A stretch of 25,660 bases of DNA, from positions 1 to 25,660 of the IMG/VR virus record IMGVR_UViG_3300020174_000060. One strand, 5' to 3'. Position 1 is the first letter of the stretch; each line of letters starts with the position of its first letter. The stretch comes from a virus. The notes below the pieces were generated by a model, which made no database searches, had not been told where the DNA came from, and saw only the letters and a program-made list of their open reading frames with translations. Position numbers and translations under genes: made by a program. This document shows, in pieces, positions 1,760-22,010 of this stretch.

Positions 1760-2341
1760 TTAATTTTCTGCATAGTTTATAAATTGAGCAATGCTTACCC
1801 TTGTTCCATCTCCCTGTATTGGTGTTGTTGCATGTGATGCACACCCAGGAAAGATAATAGCTCTGTTTTCTTTAAAGTCTACTTGATGATCTATGTCTTG
1901 AAAGTACATATCACCACCACTAAACTCACCAATACCTAATAACACAATTACTGTAAACACTGAGAGATCTGTATGTTGATTGTATACCTCATTATTATTA
2001 TAGTAATTTACTAATATCGTATCAACAGTAGACTTCTTAATATGTTTATAATGCACGCTACGTGCAATTAGTTCGTCTAAATATTTATCTGTAAATATCT
2101 TTTTATTGTATTGTACAATTAATGATTCACTAGCATCATAATACAACTCATATAAAAACACACCCGTTCCAGTTTTTTGAGAGTTATTACCATTCATTGC
2201 ATCCCCAGTTTTACCAGGTGGTTTCCTGTATTTATGAATACTAACCACTTCATTCTTAACATGTTGCAACTCTTCAGGTGTGTAGAAATCATCAAGGATT
2301 ACGAGATCTAAATTAGGCTTTTCCACAAAACTTAATTTCAT
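1760..2341 (-). CDS. 2OG-Fe(II) oxygenase (prolyl-4-hydroxylase-like), third in tandem
   Basis: A 193-aa protein. The ATG at 2341 forms an ATGA overlap with the stop of the preceding gene, so I preferred it to the further upstream start at 2365. The double-stranded beta-helix signature is visible: iron ligands H123 and D125 (motif YNQHTDLSVFT), F-S-G-G-D at 140-144, distal ligand H170 (motif IIFPGCASHATTP) and R181, the expected 2-oxoglutarate salt bridge, 11 residues later. These enzymes use O2 and 2-oxoglutarate to hydroxylate a protein or small-molecule substrate, releasing CO2 and succinate. The target here is unknown. It follows two other oxygenases in the same coupled cassette. Codons are very AT-rich (a counted stretch near 2041-2100 is 28% GC). 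Confidence 0.85.
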   Translation of the reverse strand: MKLSFVEKPNLDLVILDDFYTPEELQHVKNEVVSIHKYRKPPGKTGDAMNGNNSQKTGTGVFLYELYYDASESLIVQYNKKIFTDKYLDELIARSVHYKHIKKSTVDTILVNYYNNNEVYNQHTDLSVFTVIVLLGIGEFSGGDMYFQDIDHQVDFKENRAIIFPGCASHATTPIQGDGTRVSIAQFINYAEN

Positions 2342-2922
2342 CGCCAAGGTTCTCCACCTACCCACAACACTGCTGTTTTTCTAACACCCTTAGTTACTGG
2401 GGTAACTCTATGCAACAAGTACGATGGGAAGAACCATGCTCTGCCTAACCTCATCTCTAAAGTTTCATCAGTATCAGAAACTTTAAACTGCAACTCACCA
2501 CCCTCATATTCTTTTGGCTCAGATAGCATTAATACCATAGACAGCTTGCGTGGTACTGTGTTGTCTGAGGGACAAGCATCTGTGTGCCAGTTGTAATGTC
2601 CTTGGTATGCTCCACTATATTCTGACAACTGCATGTCTTCATAAAAACCAGTGAGATTAATGTGAAAAAATTTACTATTAACCTCCGATACTACTTGAGC
2701 AATCTTCTGCCAAATGTGTTGATTTTGTTCTGAGAAATCTACCCATCCAACATTTGTTCTTCTTGTATGCATATCATTACCAGAGTTCCCAACTTCTGCT
2801 GCATGATAATTTATCCACGATGGATGATGTCTTAAAAAATGTATATCTTCTTCAGTAAGAAAGTTATCCCAATAAACTACATTCTCTTTTCCGTTAGGGT
2901 TTCTCGGATTTAACAACATCAT
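2338..2922 (-). CDS. PKHD-type 2OG-Fe(II) hydroxylase, second in tandem
   Basis: A 194-aa enzyme with the full PKHD hydroxylase pattern. It has iron ligands H113 and D115 (motif YNWHTDACPSD), the R-K-L-S-M-V-L-M-L-S-E-P strand and Y-E-G-G-E-L at 139-144. Next come R-A-W-F-F-P-S with distal ligand H171 (motif LLHRVTPVTKGVRKTA) and R181 for 2-oxoglutarate. This is the PiuC/YbiX-like class, common in marine cyanophages and pelagiphages, where the substrate is generally unknown. It starts with tandem ATGs at 2922 and 2919, five bases after the previous stop, and its own stop overlaps the next start (ATGA). The length matches a single-domain member. Catalytic residues appear intact, so it should be active. 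Confidence 0.88.
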   Translation of the reverse strand: MMLLNPRNPNGKENVVYWDNFLTEEDIHFLRHHPSWINYHAAEVGNSGNDMHTRRTNVGWVDFSEQNQHIWQKIAQVVSEVNSKFFHINLTGFYEDMQLSEYSGAYQGHYNWHTDACPSDNTVPRKLSMVLMLSEPKEYEGGELQFKVSDTDETLEMRLGRAWFFPSYLLHRVTPVTKGVRKTAVLWVGGEPWR

Positions 2923-2927
2923 ACAAG

Positions 2928-3488
2928 TTACTTAATCTCCATAAGATAAGTTCTGTCTTTCAAGTAAGAGTAAACTTCTCTATTAGTATTATCACCTATC
3001 TCATCAGTATGCTTACCATCAGCATACACATAATGTAAAAACACTTGACCAGAGTAATATCCATCTGGCCCATCACATTTATTTCTCCAGTGTTCTTGGT
3101 CCATGCCGTTATACAAAACTCCATCACCTTCGGCAAGATCAATACGTGTACCCTCTAAATAAATTGGGTATGAGTAATGATGCGATCTGCCTAGCTGTAT
3201 AGTTACACTAACTTCACATGCAGGTCTGTCAGTATGCTTCTCTAACTCATTGCCGTTTTGATATAACCTAGCGTATGCGTAAGTTGGAATTAACTTTTTA
3301 CCAACAACACTTTCGATCCTAGACCACAATCTTTCTTGTAATGTTTCAAACACAATGTCATGATGCATAAGTGTCAATGAATTTGGCACTTGATCGTCTT
3401 CTTTTTGCTCCTGCAAATCTACATTGCGTAATAATACATGTGTAAAAAACTGACAAAATTCTTTTGGTACAAGGTTTTTAATTATCAT
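2928..3488 (-). CDS. 2OG-Fe(II) oxygenase-like protein, first in tandem
   Basis: A 186-aa protein. The iron-binding H-x-D is at H85 and D87 (motif LEKHTDRPACEVSVTIQLG), followed by a strand pattern typical of the jelly-roll core. The distal histidine is probably H133 (motif MDQEHWRNKC), and the chain continues to GQVFLHYV. The usual Arg or Lys about ten residues after the distal His is not in its normal place. This variant, ending in Q-V-F-L-H-Y-V, is one I associate with marine phage and bacterial members, so it may bind the co-substrate differently. It starts in an ATGA overlap with the cupin-like gene upstream and ends five bases before the PKHD hydroxylase. The substrate is unknown. Confidence 0.75.
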   Translation of the reverse strand: MIIKNLVPKEFCQFFTHVLLRNVDLQEQKEDDQVPNSLTLMHHDIVFETLQERLWSRIESVVGKKLIPTYAYARLYQNGNELEKHTDRPACEVSVTIQLGRSHHYSYPIYLEGTRIDLAEGDGVLYNGMDQEHWRNKCDGPDGYYSGQVFLHYVYADGKHTDEIGDNTNREVYSYLKDRTYLMEIK

Positions 3489-7583: not shown

Positions 7584-10157
7584 TCACTCGAATGGAGTGC
7601 TGTTTGGATTTGTCTCTCCAGGCTGCCACCAATACTCCTTACCCTCTTTATAATCTCTGCTTAATGTTCTGTTAATTTGTGATTGATAATCAGGATCAGA
7701 CCACAATAATAAACGTTCCCATACCATACGTTTCATTGCTGTATTAATCATCCAGTTGTTTTGATATGGTGTGTGTCTAATTAATGTCTTTAATGTTCTT
7801 GTTCTAAATTTGCTTTCAGCATCTTCGTCGCCTTCAGCAAAATCTTTAGCTGATCCAAATAAAGCATAACCAATACTATCTATTGCTCCAATAACTGGAC
7901 CAGCAACATAACCTGATAAACCTTGACGATAGTCACCTAACCCAATAGCTACATCCACAAGAGGGCCAAGACCTCCGCCACGTGTAAATGCAGTTGCCCA
8001 AAATATACGACCTTCTTCAGTTGTTGGATCCATGCTTTGTGGCTTAACACCTCTAGCAACGTTCATTAGTTGAACACCAACACCACCTAGTACAGTCATC
8101 ATAATAGCAACATCAGCGACTGCTCGCATCTTTTGTAATGGAGTTTTAGCTTCAGATAGTTGTCTATCTAAATGTAAATGTTTAAATGCAAATGGCCAAG
8201 ATTTAAACATACCAAATGATCTTGTAATTTCTCCAGGAATGGTGCCTGGTTTTGTAGTGCCTATTAATTGTGTACGTTCTAATAAACTAACTGTTGGAAC
8301 TCCACGTTCAGTTTCACCTAAGATCATACGCATATAAGCATCTGCTATCTCTTGAGCTTCTCCAGCTTCTAATCCACTAATCTTTTCAATATCTCTTGGA
8401 CTCATGTATTTAAATTCAACATCACCAAACTGACGACTACCTTGTTTCGCTTGACGTATTTTGTTCCACATATCATCAGTAATTTCATATCTACTTAATG
8501 CAACTCTATCACCATCAGCTAACTTATCCCATGGTGTATCAGCAAGCTTAGCCCACTTTTCCATTAATGATCGACCAGCAAATTGTCTACCTCTTTCAGT
8601 TACTGCTGTTAATCCAGTCAGACGTAATGAAGAATCGCCGATAAATCTAAACAATGGAGTTGCTGTATCTTCAGCTAAATATCTATTTAATGTTGATGCT
8701 GTTTGTCCTAGTACTGCTTCATTGATTAATCCTAATTCAGCTGCTTCTTTTTTACGTGCCGCACCGTTAGTAATGTTGAGTAAGTTTTCAATATACCCAG
8801 CTACTGCTTTGACCTCAGGAATATTATTCATCTTAAACATACGAGCGACTGTGCCAGCATCAGTTGGTGCAGCAAGTAATGAAGTAAATCCTAATGAGGT
8901 AGACATAAGTAATGATCTGTAATTTCTAAGCAACTCTCCGCCACCTTCTTGTACTCCGTTGTATACGCGATACATATCACCAAAGAACTCTGCTGTTCGT
9001 TGTGCAGTTTTATCTGGATCTTTATACTTCTTGCGTCCTGTGTATTTACTCTTTAACTTTGAGTAGTCATTATTTCTTGCCAAGTCAAGTATTTCATTTT
9101 GTAAAAAGCTTACTGTAGAATCTGCATTAGGGCCAAGCACTTCCATCTTAGCAATGTCTTTAGCCATGCCACGCATGTAGTTAATCATAGAGTCGTATAC
9201 TTGAGGCTCTCCATACAACTTCTGATACTGTTTAAATGAAGATGCATTTTTAAACTGAAGGATACGTTCTTCTTGATGTCTAAGGTATACAGCAGAACCA
9301 GCAGTGTAGTTAGATGCGTAAATAGATTTGTCTAACTTGTTTCTACCTTCTGATGTAATGCTATCATACACTTCACCTAAAACTGTGTTTAACTCATCAT
9401 CTGTCATTTGACTTCCGGTACGCTTACTAATCATTGCCTCTTTGTCCATCAGTTTTCCAGTATCTTCTACCCATTGCGTTTTAGGCACTTTCCTAATCTT
9501 ACCGATGTTGTGTGATTGTGGCATACGCCATTTGTTATTGTATTGTATGTTTCCGCCATGCTGATTAAATACAATGAATGCATAATCTGTTGCTTCTTTC
9601 CATGCCTTAGCAAACTCTGCGGCTTCTTTATTCTTTGTTGATCCCGGCTCAAACACTTCGTCTAATACATTATCAATTAAATCTTGTTTACGTTTTTGAC
9701 TAGGTATGATTTTGCGAGTAAAGTCTGTTCCAGTGCGACCAAGCGCTGTCTGTTCCATTTCAAGTATTAAATTGTTTAATGGCGCAATGATGCGACTAAA
9801 GACTACATTCTCTTGTAAGTATAAATTCTTACCAACAGTAGTTTCAGGAACGGGTGTCATAATAGATTTAAGTGTTTCAAATGGATCTTCTGACGCATGT
9901 AGCTTATTACGCAATTCAATTTTCTTTAATGCTGTTTGTAGTTGCACACGCATCTTATGATTTTCACGTCCTTCAATAAAATCAATCGCTTTGTCTTGTG
10001 CAAACTTAATTCGATCTTCTGGATTTCTTAATGCAGCTTCAGATGATTCATAGAATTGTTTATAAATATCTATTGCTTCTTGACGAAACTTCTCACTCAG
10101 CACACCTTGTGCTGCTGCTAAACAAGATTCTAATCCATGTGTTATTTGTTCTGCCAT
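7584..10157 (-). CDS. Internal virion / ejection protein, gp16 C-terminal-like
   Basis: An 857-aa protein, the last of four internal virion proteins; its ATG shares a base with the previous stop (TAATG). It is mostly helical and charged. Recognisable phage-type elements are a FNQHGGNIQYNNKWRMPQSHN stretch near 197-217 and several Ala/Gly-rich membrane-like segments in the second half (e.g. LLMSTSLGFTSLLAAPTD and IMMTVLGGVGVQLMNVARG). The position corresponds to T7 gp16, which forms part of the channel that carries DNA across the cell envelope. Gp16 is about 1,318 aa and begins with a lytic transglycosylase. Here that domain is not visible, and the gene plus its upstream neighbour have a combined length of about 1,620 aa. 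The structural role is inferred from order and size. Confidence 0.7.
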   Translation of the reverse strand: MAEQITHGLESCLAAAQGVLSEKFRQEAIDIYKQFYESSEAALRNPEDRIKFAQDKAIDFIEGRENHKMRVQLQTALKKIELRNKLHASEDPFETLKSIMTPVPETTVGKNLYLQENVVFSRIIAPLNNLILEMEQTALGRTGTDFTRKIIPSQKRKQDLIDNVLDEVFEPGSTKNKEAAEFAKAWKEATDYAFIVFNQHGGNIQYNNKWRMPQSHNIGKIRKVPKTQWVEDTGKLMDKEAMISKRTGSQMTDDELNTVLGEVYDSITSEGRNKLDKSIYASNYTAGSAVYLRHQEERILQFKNASSFKQYQKLYGEPQVYDSMINYMRGMAKDIAKMEVLGPNADSTVSFLQNEILDLARNNDYSKLKSKYTGRKKYKDPDKTAQRTAEFFGDMYRVYNGVQEGGGELLRNYRSLLMSTSLGFTSLLAAPTDAGTVARMFKMNNIPEVKAVAGYIENLLNITNGAARKKEAAELGLINEAVLGQTASTLNRYLAEDTATPLFRFIGDSSLRLTGLTAVTERGRQFAGRSLMEKWAKLADTPWDKLADGDRVALSRYEITDDMWNKIRQAKQGSRQFGDVEFKYMSPRDIEKISGLEAGEAQEIADAYMRMILGETERGVPTVSLLERTQLIGTTKPGTIPGEITRSFGMFKSWPFAFKHLHLDRQLSEAKTPLQKMRAVADVAIMMTVLGGVGVQLMNVARGVKPQSMDPTTEEGRIFWATAFTRGGGLGPLVDVAIGLGDYRQGLSGYVAGPVIGAIDSIGYALFGSAKDFAEGDEDAESKFRTRTLKTLIRHTPYQNNWMINTAMKRMVWERLLLWSDPDYQSQINRTLSRDYKEGKEYWWQPGETNPNSTPFE

Positions 10158-12460
10158 TAATTTCTACACCTGTTAATATATTCTAAATGACGATCAACTT
10201 CAGCGTAATCATCTAAGACTTCTTGCAATGTTTTTGGTTGTCCACTTTCATCTGTCAACACTCTAAGATTTAGTATTGCTTCATCAGCATCATCAGCGAC
10301 TAATCTTTCACGCATTGATTTAACTTCATTCTTAACGCTTTGTGATGCTGCACCATTTCTATAATCATCTAATGTCTTTATGTCACTAGCAATTTGTTTA
10401 GCGACTCGAGATGTTTCCGATATAAAACTGCTTGCTGCGATGTCTCCCCTATATATTTGGCCATCAAAAGCGCCTTCTGATAATCCCTGTCTGAGATTGA
10501 GGACTGTGTTGTTTGAGACGACATCGAAGTCTTCTCCGCGTCTAATTGCTTTTGCTGCGTTTGTGATTTCATTCGAGAGGATTCCCGCTTCGTCCCCATA
10601 CGACCTAATGAGTTTGATGAGTTTTTCATTCTCTGATCTCCTAAATTTATTGATTGTTGTTGGTTCTTGTTTACTTAAAGCAGCACTTTCTCTTTCTAAG
10701 TATTTAACCATATCATTGATAATTGCATTACGCTCACGCGTAAAGTATAGACCCTCTAAGTCAAGAGATAATTCAGACATATTATATGATGATAAGTCTT
10801 TTGTTTCCATGACTAACTTTTCAATATTGTCTACATTCTTTAAGCCAGACTTGTTAATGATATCAAACATAGCAATCTGCTCTGCTTCATCTTTAAATTT
10901 TCTAGCTACAATCTTAGCAACATCTTCACTCACAATTCCACGAGTAAATGCTACAAATCCTTTTGCAGACAATCTAGCCAATTCACTGCTATCTTTATAT
11001 GTAGGTAACATATCATCAATAATATCCTCTAATCCGGGATACATTTTAAATACCTTCATATCTTTTGGTGAAATAGTGCGGTCTAATGCATTACGTACAA
11101 TACTAGATAGTCTTACTAATTCTGGAGTAAATCCTGATGACTCGTTTAATATAATTGCAGAAATAGGTTGATTGGCCTCTTGTGCTAAACGTAATCTTGT
11201 ATGACCATCTACTACAGTTCGTATTCCTTTAGCATCTTCAAATACAATAATATGTCCAGCTTTGACCGGATCGTATACAACATTTTTAGGAACAGGCTCT
11301 TTAAATTGTTTAAACTGAAATCTATCTTCATCTATCTGAATGGTTTTAGAATCTACCTCTTCTGCCATGTTATATTGTTTTTCTGTTAACTTCACATCCT
11401 CCGGTACATTTAATCCAGCGTTAGGCCCTTTGTCTAATGCCTTCATATCATTGTCTAACAAATGTCTAAAGAATTGTATTGTATTGCCATGATGAGCAGT
11501 ATTGTTTGGATCATTAGGAAAGAAGTTATTAGTTTCATTTACATCCAATGCTGTTTGTCTATCTAACCCCATTTCTAATTCAGGATCAGGTTTATATGTA
11601 TAGCCTTGATTATCTGCATGTGCAGCTCTAAGAGCTTCAATACCTTCAATACGCTCTTTAGGTGTTAATGCTCTTTTGATTTTGTTTTCAGTATACTTAA
11701 AGTATTCTTTAATAGGCAGATGAGTTGCTCCAATAATAGCGCCACCAAATGCAGAACCTAATGCAATGTTTTGCAACATCTCTTGTTTGGTATAATCTTC
11801 ACCTGTCAAGCGCTGATGCCATTGCTTGACTTGATCATATTCATATAATTCTACACCCGCAAGGATTGCAGAGTTGGTAGCAATCTTGCTGGTTAAGTTC
11901 CATGATGATCCTATAGGAATTAACATACTTGCTAAATCTAAATCATCCGAAGCCGCGCCAATCATTGATCCAGCAAAAGCGCCTATCTTACCTAATATGC
12001 TTTGTTTTTCACCAACTCGGTATTGTTCTTGTATTGTTTCTTCTGCATTAGTTGCTGCTTTAGTTTGAGCTGATCTATAAAAACTATCTGTGCTATTAAG
12101 ATCAAACCCTTGTTCTGTAAGATAAGTCTTGTATTCTGGATTGTTTTCAGCTAATGAATATAGTTTATTGATTGTGCTTTCAATGCCGGTGCTACGCTTA
12201 CCTGTAGGATCTTGCAAGTAAGTTGGGTTATCCATGATCTGAGTCATGTCAATACTATTTTGATTAGTCATTGATGCATACTGCTCAACAAGAGGTTGAA
12301 GTATGTCTGACATATAATCACGCTCTGCATCAGCTCCAAACGATGCAAACGTACCTTTAGTAAATGCAGTAAGGTTTTCTATACCACCACTATATTCTCC
12401 ACCAAGGACAGGTTCTCTATAGTTAATCAGTGATGCATCAGGCGCACTTAATAGCTTCAC
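10157..12460 (-). CDS. Internal virion protein with DdrB-like ParB domain
   Basis: A 767-aa virion protein whose ATG overlaps the previous stop (ATGA). Residues about 1-370 are helical, with a hydrophobic segment near 155-170 and another near 232-246. Residues about 370-445 form a ParB/Srx-superfamily domain: a F-Q-F-K motif at 381-384, AGHIIVFEDAKG at 401-412 and VVDGHTRLRLAQE at 416-428, then I-S-A-I-I-L-N-E. This arrangement matches the ParB domain of P1 DdrB, a packaged anti-restriction protein, better than it matches chromosomal ParB. The remaining C-terminus is helical. It probably enters the cell with the DNA as part of the ejectosome. An anti-defence or DNA-binding role is inference; nuclease or CTPase activity is not shown by the sequence. 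Confidence 0.8.
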   Translation of the reverse strand: MKLLSAPDASLINYREPVLGGEYSGGIENLTAFTKGTFASFGADAERDYMSDILQPLVEQYASMTNQNSIDMTQIMDNPTYLQDPTGKRSTGIESTINKLYSLAENNPEYKTYLTEQGFDLNSTDSFYRSAQTKAATNAEETIQEQYRVGEKQSILGKIGAFAGSMIGAASDDLDLASMLIPIGSSWNLTSKIATNSAILAGVELYEYDQVKQWHQRLTGEDYTKQEMLQNIALGSAFGGAIIGATHLPIKEYFKYTENKIKRALTPKERIEGIEALRAAHADNQGYTYKPDPELEMGLDRQTALDVNETNNFFPNDPNNTAHHGNTIQFFRHLLDNDMKALDKGPNAGLNVPEDVKLTEKQYNMAEEVDSKTIQIDEDRFQFKQFKEPVPKNVVYDPVKAGHIIVFEDAKGIRTVVDGHTRLRLAQEANQPISAIILNESSGFTPELVRLSSIVRNALDRTISPKDMKVFKMYPGLEDIIDDMLPTYKDSSELARLSAKGFVAFTRGIVSEDVAKIVARKFKDEAEQIAMFDIINKSGLKNVDNIEKLVMETKDLSSYNMSELSLDLEGLYFTRERNAIINDMVKYLERESAALSKQEPTTINKFRRSENEKLIKLIRSYGDEAGILSNEITNAAKAIRRGEDFDVVSNNTVLNLRQGLSEGAFDGQIYRGDIAASSFISETSRVAKQIASDIKTLDDYRNGAASQSVKNEVKSMRERLVADDADEAILNLRVLTDESGQPKTLQEVLDDYAEVDRHLEYINRCRN

Positions 12461-14748
12461 TCATCACCACCCATGCGCTCATATCTGTATGAACTAAATC
12501 CAGTTCTTACACGTTTCTTACCAGCTAATGGTATGTCTTGTTGTAATGATCCAAACTGTTCTTTGGCTGTGTAAATTTCTTGTAATACATGTCCATCAAA
12601 TCTAATTGGCACATTACTTTCATTAGTAAATGGATGTCCGTTTTTATCTAATAAAATGTAATGATCGCCAATTCTTTTTGGTGTAGCATTAGCTAAATCT
12701 TCTGTAATGTGTTGTTGCTTATTTGGTGCCGTAATAGAAGGCACTTCCCCTGTATCTACAACAACAGATGATAAGAAATCATTTGCATCTGCGGTAGAGA
12801 AATACTTAGGAAATTCCTCAAAATCCATATCATTATGAATGATTACAAATCTATCATTAACTTGAGATAATCCACCCATTTTACCCTCTGCTCCAGTTAC
12901 TGCCATAATTGCTTCTTTATATTTGGCATCATTAACATTTGTGCTTCCAGCAGCATCAGGATACATTCTAGCATAATATGCATCAGCTGCCTGTAGTATT
13001 CTATCTGACTCTCCAGGATGTAACGAGACGGCATCAATTAAAGCTAATGCAGATTTAGTTTTCTTACGTTTGCTCTTCATATCTAAATTAGATTCTACTA
13101 TAAATTGCTGACCTTCCAGTATAGTAGCCAGTGTATTTGGATCTGTGCCATTAACCGCTAACGCGCCAACATGAGCAAACACAGGATCTTTCGGAGACAC
13201 TTGTTGGAATACAGATAAAGCATCTGCACCAAACGCATCAACTATTTGAGATGCAACTGAAATTTTCTGATCCTTAGTAATTTCATCAGATGAAATAATA
13301 CGTGTTAATCGCTGAGCTTGTTGTTTAGTTAAGAAATTAGTCTCTCCAGGAATATAATCTGGCTGAGATCTAATTGCGTTAAATTGTTTTTCAAATGACA
13401 TCTGTAATTGTTTTGAATCTCCAGTTAACAATAAATCAATATCGCCATGATTAGTACCTGATCGTGTAAGTGTATATTGTGCTAAGTCTTTATCCCTTGC
13501 TTCTTCTAATTTCTTAGCATGATCTTTTGCAAGCGTTACGTATGATTTAGGATAGCTCTCAGGATCATTGTCCCATCGTGAAATTAAAGCTTGTATTTCT
13601 GGTAATGATTTACTTTGAAATTCTTGAGATATACTTACTAACGCCATGGTAGTGTGGAAATCTTCTAAAGCCGCTGCTTTTGCTGGACCAGATAACTTAG
13701 CAATCTTATCAGTATATGATGTAAGCTCCACTCTCCAATTATTTACATTTGCACCTTCTTCAAGGTTTGATCTAATTGTCTTACCTTGGTCAGTAATGCC
13801 TTTTAATTCAGCTTTATATTCTGATGCTATCTGTGAGTATTTTGATTCAATACGAGATTGTAATGTATTCTTTTGAGTAGGTTTAAGATGTTTCCAAACA
13901 TCTGAATATTTACCTAACTCACCTTTTTCTAATTGGTCATATACTTCTTCAATGGTTGCAAACTCAAGTTGTAATTCATCTGCAATGTGTCTATATAATG
14001 CTTCTGAGAATTCTTTTTGAATATCGTTTTTAAACGATTCTTTACGTGGACTGTTTGCAAATAACTGTTCTGCTTCTTGTTGTGAAGCTAAAAACTTAGC
14101 AAAAATAACACTAGGCTCTTGATTCTTCATATCTACTTCCATTTGCCTAACCATGCCAAACATAGTGTCTTTAGCTAAATCATCTTGTCTTTCTTGTTCT
14201 TTGCTGCGTAATTCTTTTAATGATGCTTTATAGTAACTATTACCATCTGTAATACGTTTTTGATAGAATGCATTAGCAGATTCAGGATCTATCTGTGCAA
14301 TAACATTTGACCATGACTTTAATGGTGTTTCTAATTCTCGTTGAATAATTGCTGCATCAGTCAGCTGACCATTCTTAACTCTTTCATAAACATCTTCATA
14401 ATGTTTATATGCACTATTAGTTAATTCAGATGTAGCTTGTTGAGCGTATAGTTTTTGTACTGCATCATTCCAAACCATACCACCATTTAATGCAGCTTCA
14501 ATCGGATTGACACCAGTTGCTTGTGCATCTTCTAGTTGTTTAGTAGTTAATGGATTAGCAACTGTATATTGTGCAGCTTGTTTTTTAATGCCTATCTCTG
14601 CTTGTCCGGCAGCAAACTTACTAATAACGTCAAGACTACCTTCAATCGATTTTGATCTTCTAATTTGTTCTTGCAGATTAGGAGTTTGGATGGTATCAAT
14701 ACCAGCCATTAATGGTGCTTTTTGTTCGTATGTAGGTAGTCTAGCCAT
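12457..14748 (-). CDS. Internal virion protein, gp15-like
   Basis: A 763-aa helical, Gln/Lys/Glu/Ala-rich protein. It occupies the T7 gp15 position and nearly the gp15 length (747 aa). T7 gp15 is a core protein that is ejected with the DNA and forms a periplasmic tube. The N-terminal 100 residues (MARLPTYEQKAPLMAG, then a long Ala/Gln-rich helix) are typical of this class. No enzymatic motif is seen. GGGGAG sits upstream of the ATG. It begins three bases after the gp14-like gene and ends in an ATGA overlap with the ParB-domain protein. The assignment rests on order, length and composition, not on strong motif identity. Confidence 0.72.
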   Translation of the reverse strand: MARLPTYEQKAPLMAGIDTIQTPNLQEQIRRSKSIEGSLDVISKFAAGQAEIGIKKQAAQYTVANPLTTKQLEDAQATGVNPIEAALNGGMVWNDAVQKLYAQQATSELTNSAYKHYEDVYERVKNGQLTDAAIIQRELETPLKSWSNVIAQIDPESANAFYQKRITDGNSYYKASLKELRSKEQERQDDLAKDTMFGMVRQMEVDMKNQEPSVIFAKFLASQQEAEQLFANSPRKESFKNDIQKEFSEALYRHIADELQLEFATIEEVYDQLEKGELGKYSDVWKHLKPTQKNTLQSRIESKYSQIASEYKAELKGITDQGKTIRSNLEEGANVNNWRVELTSYTDKIAKLSGPAKAAALEDFHTTMALVSISQEFQSKSLPEIQALISRWDNDPESYPKSYVTLAKDHAKKLEEARDKDLAQYTLTRSGTNHGDIDLLLTGDSKQLQMSFEKQFNAIRSQPDYIPGETNFLTKQQAQRLTRIISSDEITKDQKISVASQIVDAFGADALSVFQQVSPKDPVFAHVGALAVNGTDPNTLATILEGQQFIVESNLDMKSKRKKTKSALALIDAVSLHPGESDRILQAADAYYARMYPDAAGSTNVNDAKYKEAIMAVTGAEGKMGGLSQVNDRFVIIHNDMDFEEFPKYFSTADANDFLSSVVVDTGEVPSITAPNKQQHITEDLANATPKRIGDHYILLDKNGHPFTNESNVPIRFDGHVLQEIYTAKEQFGSLQQDIPLAGKKRVRTGFSSYRYERMGGDE

Positions 14749-14751
14749 TTA

Positions 14752-15372
14752 TTAATATCTCCCCGGAAATGCCTGAAATGGGCTATTGCCAACTGGATTA
14801 AACATAGAGGTTTCAAACATTGATGTTGGTCCTGTGTATGTATTCATTGCGTTAATTTGTGCGCCAGCATTTTCAAATCCAGCCACAGCTTCTGTTGGTG
14901 CTGGTGCGCCACCGGGCATTAATGAATAAGTTGTTGCAGCTGCGGATGCAATTTTAGTAAAGGCATCAAACCTAGAACTAGATACTGCTGCGTCTGCTGC
15001 TTCTTCAAACATCATCTTCTGTATTTCACCAAATGATCGTTTTTCTTTAGCTGCAATTTGTAAGTTTTTAAAGTCACGTCCAGCAAACTTCTCATTGATG
15101 TCTTGAACAAGTTTAGCTGATCCAGAGAATCCAGATACGCCACCAGCAAAGCCACGAGCAATCGCTGCTGCATTAGTTTGTCTGAGTTTGCGTAATACAT
15201 CATTTGCTTGTATCTCTGCATTAACAGCATCACGTTCTGATTTAGCAAGAGCCATCTCACCTTGCAGTTCGTACATTGCTGCTTGATAGCGACCTTGCTG
15301 AAGAGCCTGTAACGCACCAGCTGCTTGAGAAGCTGCTGATACTGCCATCATAATGGTTGTTGGTTCTGCCAT
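14752..15372 (-). CDS. Internal virion protein, gp14-like
   Basis: A 206-aa protein in the T7 gp14 position (gp14 is 196 aa). In T7, gp14 inserts in the outer membrane after ejection and starts the DNA channel. Residues 1-25 are Ala/Met-rich and helical (motif MAVSAASQAAGALQALQQG). A long charged helix follows to about 140, then a Pro/Gly/Asn-rich tail ending in FPGRY. The ribosome site AGGAAGG precedes the ATG. It follows the tail tubular B gene by three bases and precedes the gp15-like gene by three, so the three ejection genes are almost certainly one transcript. Confidence 0.72.
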   Translation of the reverse strand: MAEPTTIMMAVSAASQAAGALQALQQGRYQAAMYELQGEMALAKSERDAVNAEIQANDVLRKLRQTNAAAIARGFAGGVSGFSGSAKLVQDINEKFAGRDFKNLQIAAKEKRSFGEIQKMMFEEAADAAVSSSRFDAFTKIASAAATTYSLMPGGAPAPTEAVAGFENAGAQINAMNTYTGPTSMFETSMFNPVGNSPFQAFPGRY

Positions 15373-15375
15373 ATT

Positions 15376-17352
15376 CTACCTTCCTGGATAAACTGATACT
15401 TTATATTCTAAACCTAATAATGTAAGCTTTAACGGTGCGCTTTGCGTCACTGTTATCTGGCCATCATTATTATACCCCAATATACCATGTAATGTCTTTG
15501 TACCTGTAAACTCTGGAACTGGACTACCTAATGCTCCAGCACCTAAAGATCGAATAGGAACAAGATTACCGTTAATTACTAAGTTCTGTGTTTCTAAGAT
15601 TAATGCATTAACTTCTACAATACGTTTTTTAAATCCAATACGTGTACCTGTTTGTGTAGCCACTTCAATCGGCATGGTTTTAATCTCTACATCAATCGGC
15701 AATCCTACTTCACAAGATGTTGTTGGTGTATTGATAAATGTGACTGCACTGTCTGCTGTTTGATTTTCTTCTACATAACCATCTGATAACACATTCACTG
15801 TTTGTCCATCAATATGAGACATATCCAAACTAGCAACAGCACCACCTTGTTTTGCACAATCTGTTAAATAGTTACTATCAAAGACTTCAACATAGTATTT
15901 TAATGTACCACCATCATCACGTTCTACAATTGTATAAATATCAGTAATGTCAACACCTACGTCTAAGAACTTACCTTGTGTAGTAAACTCTGATGGGGCA
16001 ATAACATCTTGCGCACGAAGTAATGAGAATACAGCCATAGAGCCATCATCTTCATTGACAATCAATAACAGATCATTTTCGTCAGTAGCCACTGCACGAC
16101 GAATATCCATGTGCTTAGGACCTTTCAGTAAATGTCCAGCAAGCAATGAAATTTTAGATGTAATATAAGTTAATTGTGTATCAGAGTAAGCAATCTCAGA
16201 TAACTGTTTACCTTGTCTTTGTATAAATAACACACCAGATTCTAATTGTTTAACTCGCACACCTTCTCTAATACCATTACGTGATGTCGATGATAAAAAG
16301 AAATCATTTGGAGTGATCGGTGTTAATCCTTCTTGCGGAACATAGAATTCACCACCCGTCGTAAATACTTGCAAATCACGACCAGAAATAATGTCAACGA
16401 TAGCGTTAAAAGTATTAGTATCAAGAGTAGCCTCAACAGCGTCATCGTCTAGTCCTTCCACTGCTTCAAAGTCAAAATATAGACCTACTTTAGAACCCCA
16501 AATAGTTGATGGTCTTGATTTAGATCCGCCAAAGAATAATCTACCTTGATGAAATGTTACTGATCGTGGCCATCCTTTTGTTGCTGACCATACATCTTCA
16601 TAACCTGTTTCTAATTCCCATTGACCAGATGCAGTTGCTGTAGTGTCAAAGAATGGAAATTCAGTCACTGCGTTGACAGATGTAGAGCTGTTATATTTAA
16701 CTATTCTTGCTCGTCCTTGTGGACTAGCGTTAATGTATTGTCCAACATGTCCTGAGTTAAAGACTCCAGCCGATGCTGTTAATGTAATCTTGCCAGATAC
16801 ATCTGATGGTGTCAGCGTAGCAGCTGGATTAGTTGTAGTGATAGTAAATGCATACTGTGGTACAGAATCAAAAACTATATTAGAAATAGTCCATGATGCA
16901 TCATTGGCACCACGCACAATCTTGACTGGTTGTGCATCTTCATCAACAATAATTAAAGTATCAGCAGATTGTGTCCAGCATAAATGATCTAAATGATCTG
17001 ATGTTAATCCATATCCTGTGGTATCTAAGTAATCATTACCAGATGCATTAATGTTTGTAATAAGGACTTTATCTTTGTAAACATACATGCGATTGTTTGT
17101 GAAGCATAGCATGTAGCTATCATCAACTGAGAATTCAAAATGAACTAATCGTACACCATCAGCTGGAGTGCCACCTAATTCATTGATGAACTTAGTTCCC
17201 GGTCTGCGTTTAACGCCACCTTGAGGTTGACAAATAACATTACGAGCTGTCTCTAATGCATTTTGTCTAGCCTTTAAATCAACACGAGCTTTGAGAAGCG
17301 GATCTAACTCGCCTGTTGTAAAGTTAGTTTGTATGCTAACAAAACGTGCCAT
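15376..17352 (-). CDS. Tail tubular protein B (nozzle), gp12-like
   Basis: A 658-aa protein. The N-terminus carries the usual signature of this family (SIQTNFTTGELDPLLKARVD, then RNVICQPQGGVKRRPGTKF). A central RSVTFHQGRLFFGGSKSRPS repeats the canonical blade motif of the beta-propeller nozzle. T7 gp12 (794 aa) forms the lower tail tube and nozzle that carries the fibres. The start shares one base with the upstream tail tubular A stop (TAATG), so the pair is coupled. The protein ends within three bases of the gp14-like gene. The call is confident; the shorter length is typical of marine podoviruses. Confidence 0.9.
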   Translation of the reverse strand: MARFVSIQTNFTTGELDPLLKARVDLKARQNALETARNVICQPQGGVKRRPGTKFINELGGTPADGVRLVHFEFSVDDSYMLCFTNNRMYVYKDKVLITNINASGNDYLDTTGYGLTSDHLDHLCWTQSADTLIIVDEDAQPVKIVRGANDASWTISNIVFDSVPQYAFTITTTNPAATLTPSDVSGKITLTASAGVFNSGHVGQYINASPQGRARIVKYNSSTSVNAVTEFPFFDTTATASGQWELETGYEDVWSATKGWPRSVTFHQGRLFFGGSKSRPSTIWGSKVGLYFDFEAVEGLDDDAVEATLDTNTFNAIVDIISGRDLQVFTTGGEFYVPQEGLTPITPNDFFLSSTSRNGIREGVRVKQLESGVLFIQRQGKQLSEIAYSDTQLTYITSKISLLAGHLLKGPKHMDIRRAVATDENDLLLIVNEDDGSMAVFSLLRAQDVIAPSEFTTQGKFLDVGVDITDIYTIVERDDGGTLKYYVEVFDSNYLTDCAKQGGAVASLDMSHIDGQTVNVLSDGYVEENQTADSAVTFINTPTTSCEVGLPIDVEIKTMPIEVATQTGTRIGFKKRIVEVNALILETQNLVINGNLVPIRSLGAGALGSPVPEFTGTKTLHGILGYNNDGQITVTQSAPLKLTLLGLEYKVSVYPGR

Positions 17353-20438: not shown

Positions 20439-22010
20439 TTATCCTTGTGACTGCATTACATTGTTCATCACTTCAGCAGCGGCTTCTGGGTTTTGTTGTG
20501 CAGCTTGTTGCGCCATCGCCATTGCTTGTTGTTGAGCTATAATGCGTTCAGTCTTTGTTGTTCTAATACGTTGTGGGATACCTAATTGTTCTGCAATAAA
20601 GTCCATCATCTCATCGATTTTTAATGTTGACGCTGCTTCTGGACCAGCTGCTTGTACGATTTGTGCGTATTGTAATACCTTGTCCACTTCTTCCATTGCT
20701 TGTGACATTGCTAATGGAGCTACTGGAGCAATCCTAATTTCTAAACCATTTACTTTTAATGGTAAATCAATTAAGCCACGTTCGCTCATGACATCAAGTA
20801 TCTTAGTTACTAATGGTACCATGGTTTCATTGATGAGTCTACCGAATGCAGAGCCTAGGTTTTGTGCTAATTCCTTCATACGTTCAGCCACTTCTGTAGC
20901 AGATCTAGCTGACATATTGTCTGGTGGTAATGATTCATCCAATAAGATACGTTTAATATTCATACGTAAATCATTCATCACAATTTGTGATACGTTAAAG
21001 TCACCAGCACGTGGTAATGGTCTAAGTGATTCACCTTGTGGACCCCCGTTACGTGCTACAGGAATAATAGCACCCGGCATAATCTTCACTGTATTTGGAT
21101 TCAATACACCATCATCAGCTGCTGTGTAAACACCAGCAATAGAGAGAGAAGCATTCTTTAACACTAACTCTAATGTTTTATTTAAAGTCTTCACATCAGG
21201 CAATGCTGTGATTAATGGACCACGACCATAGATCTCACCAGCTACTTTAGCATAGCGTGATACAATCCATGGACTCACTTCCATACGTCTGTAAACTAAT
21301 TCTGTTTTAGATTCTTTGTGAATCACATGATAGCAATAATCACCACGCTTCATATCATAGATGGTTGCTTCCACTAACTCTACATCATCTGTTGGTTTGT
21401 CATCAATCTTCTTTTGTAATTCAGATGGAATCTTTGCATCAGGCCATTGTCTTTGGATGGCTTCACCTTTAAGACGCATACGTCTGTATACATTATCCAC
21501 TTGACCATTAGCGCCTTCTTCAAATGAAACTAAGTATTGTGGTACTGGAATAAAGTTTAATGGATTAACATCATCACCCGGCTGTACCATCATCACTGCT
21601 GTACCTACACATAAGTCAAGTAAGAACTCACCAATCGCAATGTCAAAGTTAGATTGCTTAAGAGAAGAAAACATCTTGTCTGAGTATACGTCTAATGCGG
21701 CTTGTGCTTCCATGCGACGCTCAACAGGAATGTCAGTACCAGGTTCTAATCGACACCATTTGCGTTGTGGAGGGAAGATACCAGATTGCATACGATTAGC
21801 AAATCGCTGTGTTGAGTTGATGGCTGTAGAATCAAACACACGATTCATCTTTTTCGTGCCGCCTACTTTACCATCGTAATGTCCATCATAAAGATTACGT
21901 TGAGGTAAAGCAAACTCATAACATTCTTCGTATAAGTTTCTAAAATCTTCTTTTTTGATTAAAGCTTTATCGTGTCGCTTTAATACATCTTCGGCTTTTA
22001 ATCTCATCAT
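20439..22010 (-). CDS. Portal protein (head-tail connector)
   Basis: A 523-aa protein close to T7 gp8 in length (536 aa). Clear family motifs are the N-terminal EECYEFALPQRNLYDG, DSTAINSTQRFANRMQSGIFPP near 58-79, FGRGPLITALPD-like residues (IYGRGPLITALPDVKTLNK) and NMSARSATEVAERMKELAQNLG near 370-391. The C-terminus is Gln/Ala-rich. It forms the dodecameric ring at the head vertex through which DNA is packaged and ejected. The start has tandem ATGs (22010 and 22007) with AAAGGAA about 10-12 bases upstream. The call is secure. Confidence 0.93.
   Translation of the reverse strand: MMRLKAEDVLKRHDKALIKKEDFRNLYEECYEFALPQRNLYDGHYDGKVGGTKKMNRVFDSTAINSTQRFANRMQSGIFPPQRKWCRLEPGTDIPVERRMEAQAALDVYSDKMFSSLKQSNFDIAIGEFLLDLCVGTAVMMVQPGDDVNPLNFIPVPQYLVSFEEGANGQVDNVYRRMRLKGEAIQRQWPDAKIPSELQKKIDDKPTDDVELVEATIYDMKRGDYCYHVIHKESKTELVYRRMEVSPWIVSRYAKVAGEIYGRGPLITALPDVKTLNKTLELVLKNASLSIAGVYTAADDGVLNPNTVKIMPGAIIPVARNGGPQGESLRPLPRAGDFNVSQIVMNDLRMNIKRILLDESLPPDNMSARSATEVAERMKELAQNLGSAFGRLINETMVPLVTKILDVMSERGLIDLPLKVNGLEIRIAPVAPLAMSQAMEEVDKVLQYAQIVQAAGPEAASTLKIDEMMDFIAEQLGIPQRIRTTKTERIIAQQQAMAMAQQAAQQNPEAAAEVMNNVMQSQG

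Follow-up and report, generated by a model that had tools for sequence, protein, structure and literature searches.

The locus and its genes

The sequence we studied is a 25,660-base virus record from IMG/VR, and we refer to this whole stretch as the window. Based on Pfam and PHROGs, the late genes around the protein described here, which we call the slot protein, make up a T7-type morphogenesis block that also holds a capsid gene and a gp11-like tail protein gene, with the tail fibre lying beyond the phrog_684 gene. The genes that concern us are as follows:

7584..10157, minus strand: phrog_684 / epsilon15-gp17-type pilot protein, 857 aa (PHROGs E 4.6e-125, under the name 'virion structural protein')
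10157..12460, minus strand: slot protein, 767 aa, at the epsilon15-gp16 position, bearing a ParB/Noc-like unit, GTG start (ORF and profiles)
12457..14748, minus strand: gp15-position protein, 763 aa, cysteine-free, no profile match (assigned by position)
14752..15372, minus strand: T7 gp14-like internal virion protein, phrog_418 (E 7.1e-12)
15376..17352, minus strand: gp12-like nozzle (profile search)
20439..22010, minus strand: head-tail connector (portal), E 2.9e-98

An earlier note on this DNA took the slot protein for an internal virion protein at the gp16 position. It does belong to the ejection cassette, but since its gene precedes the phrog_684 gene, it does not occupy the final, T7 gp16-like position.

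Compared by nozzle, the isolate most like the window phage is Methylophilales phage MEP301 (78.9%), and pelagiphages come next at ~30-36%. Because MEP301 is the nearest isolate by this protein, the phage may infect a marine Methylophilales. Beside the tail-fibre genes, three adjoining ORFs at 1760-3488 have PHROGs matches annotated as '2OG-Fe(II) oxygenase', 'DNA endonuclease V' and 'ferrochelatase', and these are possibly shared fibre-type modules.

Relatives of the slot protein

When the window protein alone was used as a query against viral contigs, no relative was found. Relatives came instead from capsid-anchored searches (80 of at least 597 loci) and alignment-anchored searches (80 of 201 loci). 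Among isolates, tblastn gave three records, which lead to Dunaliella viridis virus SI2, with a homologue at the same gene position, and Ruegeria phage 45A6; a further isolate search added 17 P-SCSP1 cyanopodoviruses and one uncultured Nohivirus. The record of SI2 (HQ332136, L002) gives an algal host, yet its late block is that of a bacteriophage podovirus, and its true host is probably a bacterium. In the accessible text of the P-SCSP1 papers, g20 and g21 are possible internal virion proteins left unannotated, and the corresponding text of the P-SCSP1u cryo-EM paper names no core proteins and contains neither 'core protein' nor 'internal core'.

A ParB/Noc/KorB-like unit in the slot protein

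The earlier note placed a DdrB-like ParB domain at 11126-11353 on the minus strand, which is exactly residues 370-445 of the 767-aa slot protein, and the motif strings that it quoted are indeed there: FQFK at 381-384, AGHIIVFED at 401-409 and VVDGHTRLRLAQE at 416-428. We divide the protein into the parts listed below, together with the cysteine of the neighboring pilot protein:

11375..12460, minus strand: all-helical N-terminal scaffold, residues 1-362 (AF2, HMM)
11078..11374, minus strand: predicted ParB N-terminal (nucleotide-binding) fold, residues 363-461 (AF2; Z 9.8 vs 7bm8)
11309..11320, minus strand: FQFK, residues 381-384, putatively box-I-like, with Q382 and K384 invariant
11195..11209, minus strand: DGHTR, residues 418-422, box II / P motif GxxR (alignments)
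11090..11092, minus strand: N457, at the Asn of ParB box III (ENxxR) in the alignment
10784..11077, minus strand: HTH/central domain of seven helices, residues 462-559, like the Noc DNA-binding domain (Z 8.8)
10241..10783, minus strand: helical region, residues 560-740; 26/38 homologues have a cargo insert near its end, and there is none here
10160..10240, minus strand: conserved C-terminal tail, residues 741-767 (alignment)
10166..10168, minus strand: C765, sole cysteine of the slot protein
10122..10124, minus strand: C12, sole cysteine of the pilot protein

Pfam, NCBIfam and PHROGs gave no significant match to the window slot protein, so the ParB call of the earlier note went beyond routine annotation; the best hint of ParB in direct annotation was phrog_1033, 'ParB-like partition', at E 0.026. 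A search of the family profile against PDB sequences with hmmsearch found no ParB, and PF02195 (ParB_N) placed 0/35 records above its cut-off, with two weak matches. One of these (E 6.4e-5) is in a separate 257-aa ORF at 10939-11136 of G004, the record of L103, which also has a slot ParB, and the other (E 0.0012) lies, by its coordinates (G001:13985-14110), inside the insert of slot protein L155.

Structure prediction was more informative. The AF2 model of the whole protein, from 38 sequences, has a mean pLDDT of 68.7, with most of the ParB core at 70-90, and the domain modelled alone reaches 79.7; the prediction runs from a helical N-terminus through a ParB N-domain to a set of seven helices. 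Foldseek of the domain model returned 15 PDB chains at E<=0.001, all of them Noc/ParB (best 1.1e-5). With VIA-align, the model matches Noc (7nfu) at Z 10.9 over 185 residues spanning both domains and KorB at Z 9.2. Taken separately, the N-domain of Caulobacter ParB (7bm8) gives Z 9.8 across 91 residues (rmsd 2.6), and the DNA-binding domain of Noc (6y93) gives Z 8.8 across 96 residues (rmsd 3.7). Sulfiredoxin scores ~6-7.5, where values under 8 can reflect a common arrangement, and the Noc/ParB/KorB values exceed those of unrelated rows. Profile comparison with 10 chromosomal ParBs by hhalign agrees (score 33.5, E 3.8e-4, 156 columns), pairing DGHxRL with GERRWRA and [RK]N with EN, while the controls, 20 column shuffles and three further regions of the slot protein, all scored 19.6 or less. 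The fold claimed in the earlier note therefore holds, but its extent of 370-445 does not: the unit is larger, consisting of an N-domain and an HTH/central domain at residues 363-558.

Invariant in the 38 homologues are D418, G419, H420, R422, Q382, K384, G412, E440, N457 and C765, in a set that was gathered with a pattern containing DGH and is hence selected for the motif. DGHxR is also kept in the window protein and its six ParB-bearing capsid neighbors, which were found via capsid identity (one is cut at its 3' end). Outside the DGH-selected set, [DN]GHxR is present in 22/22 ORFs that match the domain HMM (19 with D, 3 with N), a set that takes in the window and genome loci that are partly pattern-selected. 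The motif, whose conservation among relatives the earlier note had made a test of its proposal, thus held in all relatives that we examined and, together with the structural match to 7bm8, supports placement in the ParB/Srx superfamily; as far as the sequences go, its conservation is more than chance.

The unit resembles Noc, Spo0J-type ParB and RK2 KorB in having a nucleotide-binding fold with GxxR at its N-terminal end and, after it, a seven-helix HTH/central domain. It differs from them in sitting inside a phage ejection-cassette protein, below the reach of Pfam and PDB sequence detection, in having GHxR for GERR and [RK]N for EN, and in having no recognised C-terminal dimer domain; helices at 568-661 follow, and with VIA-align residues 560-663 matched helical structures no more than moderately well. 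In the pocket, GxxR, Q382, K384 and N457 are kept, while the Glu of GERR is replaced by His and the Glu of ENxxR by Arg/Lys, and because of these replacements NTP hydrolysis may be lost. A GGDxxGVTxRL stretch that follows FQFK in most homologues is absent from the window protein and L020, which could weaken the base-contacting motif; L116 and L131 are among the homologues whose box I is complete. The net charge of the HTH domain argues neither way, because the mean over the 38 homologues (-1.8) is close to that of the 10 chromosomal ParBs (-2.2). We are highly confident that a ParB/Noc-like unit lies within an ejection-cassette protein.

Not a P1 DdrB domain

The earlier note assigned the motifs to the order seen in DdrB-type ParB domains of phage P1. 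In 12/13 aligned DdrB-ParB domains, including that of P1, the corresponding position reads G-N-x-R, and P1 DdrB itself has GNGRT where the window family has DGHxRL. The Pfam model ddrB-ParB (PF18763, cut-off 27.6 bits) matched 0/35 family records at E<=1, while P1 DdrB, as a positive control, was found at E 2e-39. Comparisons of the family with DdrB-ParB by hhalign scored 10.8 and 12.9, under the 18.4 of a control region and thus in the noise. With both PF18763 and profile-profile similarity negative, we rejected membership of the P1 DdrB-ParB family; the feature is real, and its subtype was mislabelled. Like P1 DdrB, the slot protein has a ParB superfamily domain and is encoded by a late phage gene with structural genes adjoining, whereas DdrB-ParB polyvalent proteins have the motif GNxR and no HTH unit shown there.

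Position and swapping of the cargo

In the alignment-anchored set (80 of 201 loci), every locus that extends 1.2 kb or more past the ParB slot gene has the phrog_684 gene directly after it (63/63), and every locus with 3 kb or more of upstream sequence has a nozzle gene there (77/77). Among the capsid relatives (80 of at least 597 loci), the ejection cassette consists of four genes, the third of which encodes 154 to 836 aa. Thirty-three third-gene proteins, including some truncated where the contig stops, group into a family of 10 and one of 23. Of the family of 10, six have the ParB unit; the other four (L012, L016, L018, L024; 403-412 aa) keep the scaffold and the C-terminal Cys of the ParB-bearing slot proteins without it. 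Because relatives this close are without it, the ParB unit is not essential to ejection. The scaffold (residues 1-362) is, by HMM, common to these ParB-less proteins and to phiVC8 p18, which is homologous to the window family there at E 7.6e-15.

The phrog_684 gene was found in 8/80 capsid-anchored loci (of at least 597), each with the family of 10; the five remaining loci of this family (L017, L025, L030, L041, L044) stop short of it. It was found in 0/23 loci of the other family, whose members are short or fused to further domains. Among the 37 third-gene proteins scanned, ART-PolyVal models matched four and methyltransferase models one. Five members read from sequence look like such fusions to ART-PolyVal or methyltransferase (L008:8169-9122, L022:13609-14670, L042, L065 and L063). 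MEP301, the nearest isolate, has the other third-gene type, and therefore the window phage differs from it by cassette exchange.

The same slot holds a true DdrB-ParB (E 3e-99 to 3e-71) in Piluca, TPWB-05 and APEC, and neither a ParB-like unit nor a DdrB-ParB in phiV10 and phiVC8. The proteins phiV10 gp19 and phiVC8 p18 have the gene position and C-terminal cysteine of the window slot protein without the ParB unit. The comparison of gp16-position proteins proposed in the earlier note thus finds the ParB unit in some relatives and ParB-less proteins or DdrB-ParB in others. Because a ParB unit, a DdrB-ParB, nothing or added domains alternate there, we regard the position as one for exchangeable cargo in what is probably an ejection machine, a virion role suggested by gene position. 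That two ParB-fold modules dissimilar in sequence occupy one slot suggests that the fold is useful there.

The existence of ParB-less slot proteins would also fit a unit that has kept the fold, lost the old chemistry and now serves the ejection core only in oligomerisation or packing. The altered catalytic Glu positions and the shortened C-motif region of the window protein point the same way. However, G-H-x-R, Q382, K384 and N457 are invariant or nearly so at ~20-25% overall identity and therefore point to a kept pocket, and we consider this explanation improbable.

Additional cargo in homologues

In 26/38 homologues, an insert of 329-523 aa precedes the C-terminal tail, and only two kinds were observed. 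Zeta toxin inserts scored above the Pfam cut-off in 12/41 records:

L108, L114, L115, L125, L128, L133, L146, L156, L157, L161, L162, L164: Zeta-toxin insert between the ParB/helical part and the tail

Fourteen inserts at the same place are RelA/SpoT-like by profile comparison (the A6 members, e.g. L098:8092-9093 and L093:7762-9276). Pfam detected RelA/SpoT in 0/41 records at E<=0.01; hhalign against only two RelA/SpoT sequences gave a probability of 81, E 1.2e-5 and a score of 41.7, compared with 17.1 or less in 10 shuffles, and on this we go no further than the label 'RelA/SpoT-like'. The window slot protein has no insert and a single recognised unit. In Ruegeria phage 45A6, ANH49087.1 has the ParB unit of the window family (E 8.4e-110) and differs in its length (3912 aa) and in also carrying helicase, methyltransferase and LPD38. 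In Prochlorococcus phage P-SCSP1u, the protein that bears the unit is 2563 aa long. The homologues with inserts and the 45A6 protein fit the phage polyvalent proteins of Iyer et al. (2017), the accessible part of which describes DdrB-ParB, RelA/SpoT and ART domains in such proteins and contains neither 'internal virion' nor 'epsilon15'. Separately, we noted that positions 1004-1327 of the 1362 in the profile phrog_21, named 'portal protein', hold the ParB unit (E 2.4e-23 with 45A6; 6/37), which is either a fusion to portals or a misnaming.

Cargo of this kind raises the possibility that the ParB unit works like P1 DdrB, as an injected effector that counters defence or processes nucleotides: it would sense or hydrolyse NTP or nick DNA, blunting restriction or another defence. 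Zeta-toxin and RelA/SpoT-like domains are both conflict-type, the unit is found in a polyvalent protein in 45A6, and the same slot carries a true DdrB-ParB in three phages; NTP-regulated DNases have been proposed for DdrB-ParB (Iyer et al. 2017, in the part accessible), and injected T4 proteins block type IV restriction, according to the available text of Silas et al. (2025). Against this, similarity of profiles to DdrB-ParB is nil, we identified no nuclease motif, and conservation extends from the N-domain to the HTH/central domain, for which NTP hydrolysis or nicking alone would have no need. We consider an effector role unlikely, if still worth keeping in mind.

Paired lone cysteines

In the 65 slot homologues that are complete at the 3' end (from the 80 of 201 loci), there is exactly one cysteine, within the last 12 residues (65/65), and the pilot proteins have a cysteine within the first 25 residues and none further on (65/65). 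The preceding gp15-like proteins of the marine family have a cysteine frequency of 0 across 63 proteins. The window phage is not cysteine-poor in general, because its portal, nozzle and gp11 carry 4, 5 and 4 cysteines.

In an independent set of 160 loci (L301-L460), fetched with the phiV10 and Piluca pilots using patterns of which 1/6 per fetch included the N-terminal cysteine, 107 of 111 distinct slot/pilot pairs had both cysteines. Reading the printed protein ends, we found that two of the four exceptions look like broken pilot frames (L400, L423) and two like starts called too far upstream (L430, L453). The annotated pilot of APEC is without the cysteine, though its slot protein has one, and the TPWB-05 pilot has a second cysteine at 844. 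The gp15-like proteins of the independent set are cysteine-free in only 32/102.

We considered gene overlap as a cause of the invariant tail Cys and rejected it for phiV10, phiVC8, Piluca, SI2 and the window, where the coordinates show no overlap at the Cys codon; some other family members may have a Cys codon that overlaps the start of the next gene. On sequence grounds, the simplest reading of the pair would be a disulfide from the tail of the slot protein to the head of the pilot protein; the alternatives are metal binding, homodimers or other thiol chemistry. A literature search on epsilon15 and disulfide gave nothing apt among the matches listed.

The cysteines also bear on whether this is an ordinary partition or regulatory ParB that happens to lie beside structural genes and acts outside the virion. 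The fold does match partition ParBs. However, the unit is fused to the helical scaffold shared with ParB-less slot proteins, the pilot gene is always next (63/63), the matching tail and head cysteines tie the slot protein to the pilot, and there is no parS-like site in the window, which is a partial genome. Palindromes in the window are not in excess either (5 vs 3-11 in block shuffles). We regard a partition ParB as very improbable.

A possible role in genome entry

From the fold, conservation, position and swapping computed here, we infer that the slot protein would be packaged in the virion and leave the head along with the DNA, linked to the pilot protein via the paired terminal cysteines. 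The ParB-like unit, on the cytoplasmic side, would then grip the incoming DNA in a nucleotide-dependent manner, as a clamp, brake or tether. An ejection protein that carries ParB/Noc/KorB-like cargo, clamps entering DNA and is Cys-linked to the pilot is our preferred reading, and we hold it tentatively, at close to an even chance; the nucleotide-gated clamp mechanism itself we would place somewhat below even.

The unit would play the role proposed for the C-terminal part of T7 gp16, a resemblance of role only. According to the accessible text of PMC8954989, that part of gp16 shows no sequence preference in its DNA binding, and the proposal is that it clamps the genome on the cytoplasmic side as this enters; ejection proteins are also described as swapping functional domains among themselves. 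As for the chemistry, the part of PMC12704722 open to us reports that ParB and some relatives are clamp-forming CTPases, that the GxxR arginine is needed for NTP binding, and that 17/28 purified ParB-fold proteins were without NTP binding. This 2025 survey of the ParB-CTPase fold was built on PF02195, and because PF02195 places none of the 35 records above its cut-off, the survey would be expected to miss the window family; in its accessible text 'virion', 'portal' and 'DdrB' do not occur.

A more elaborate version of the preferred reading is a two-part chain, in which a slot-pilot disulfide would form once both proteins reach the oxidising periplasm and the ParB unit would be a nucleotide-gated valve on the first DNA to enter, with optional Zeta or RelA/SpoT-like cargo on the same arm. 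We offer this chain as a speculative extension that is probably not correct in full. In a mostly non-subscription literature, we found no paper describing either the slot-pilot cysteine pair or a podovirus ejection protein that carries a ParB unit.

Genome entry of these phages may thus use a borrowed DNA clamp. A ParB/Noc-type clamp would supply concrete chemistry, namely the GxxR arginine and NTP dependence, for how podovirus ejection proteins hold or meter entering DNA, and the lone cysteine pair gives a simple handle on how two ejection proteins are joined. The swappable slot marks where these phages would carry injected effectors.
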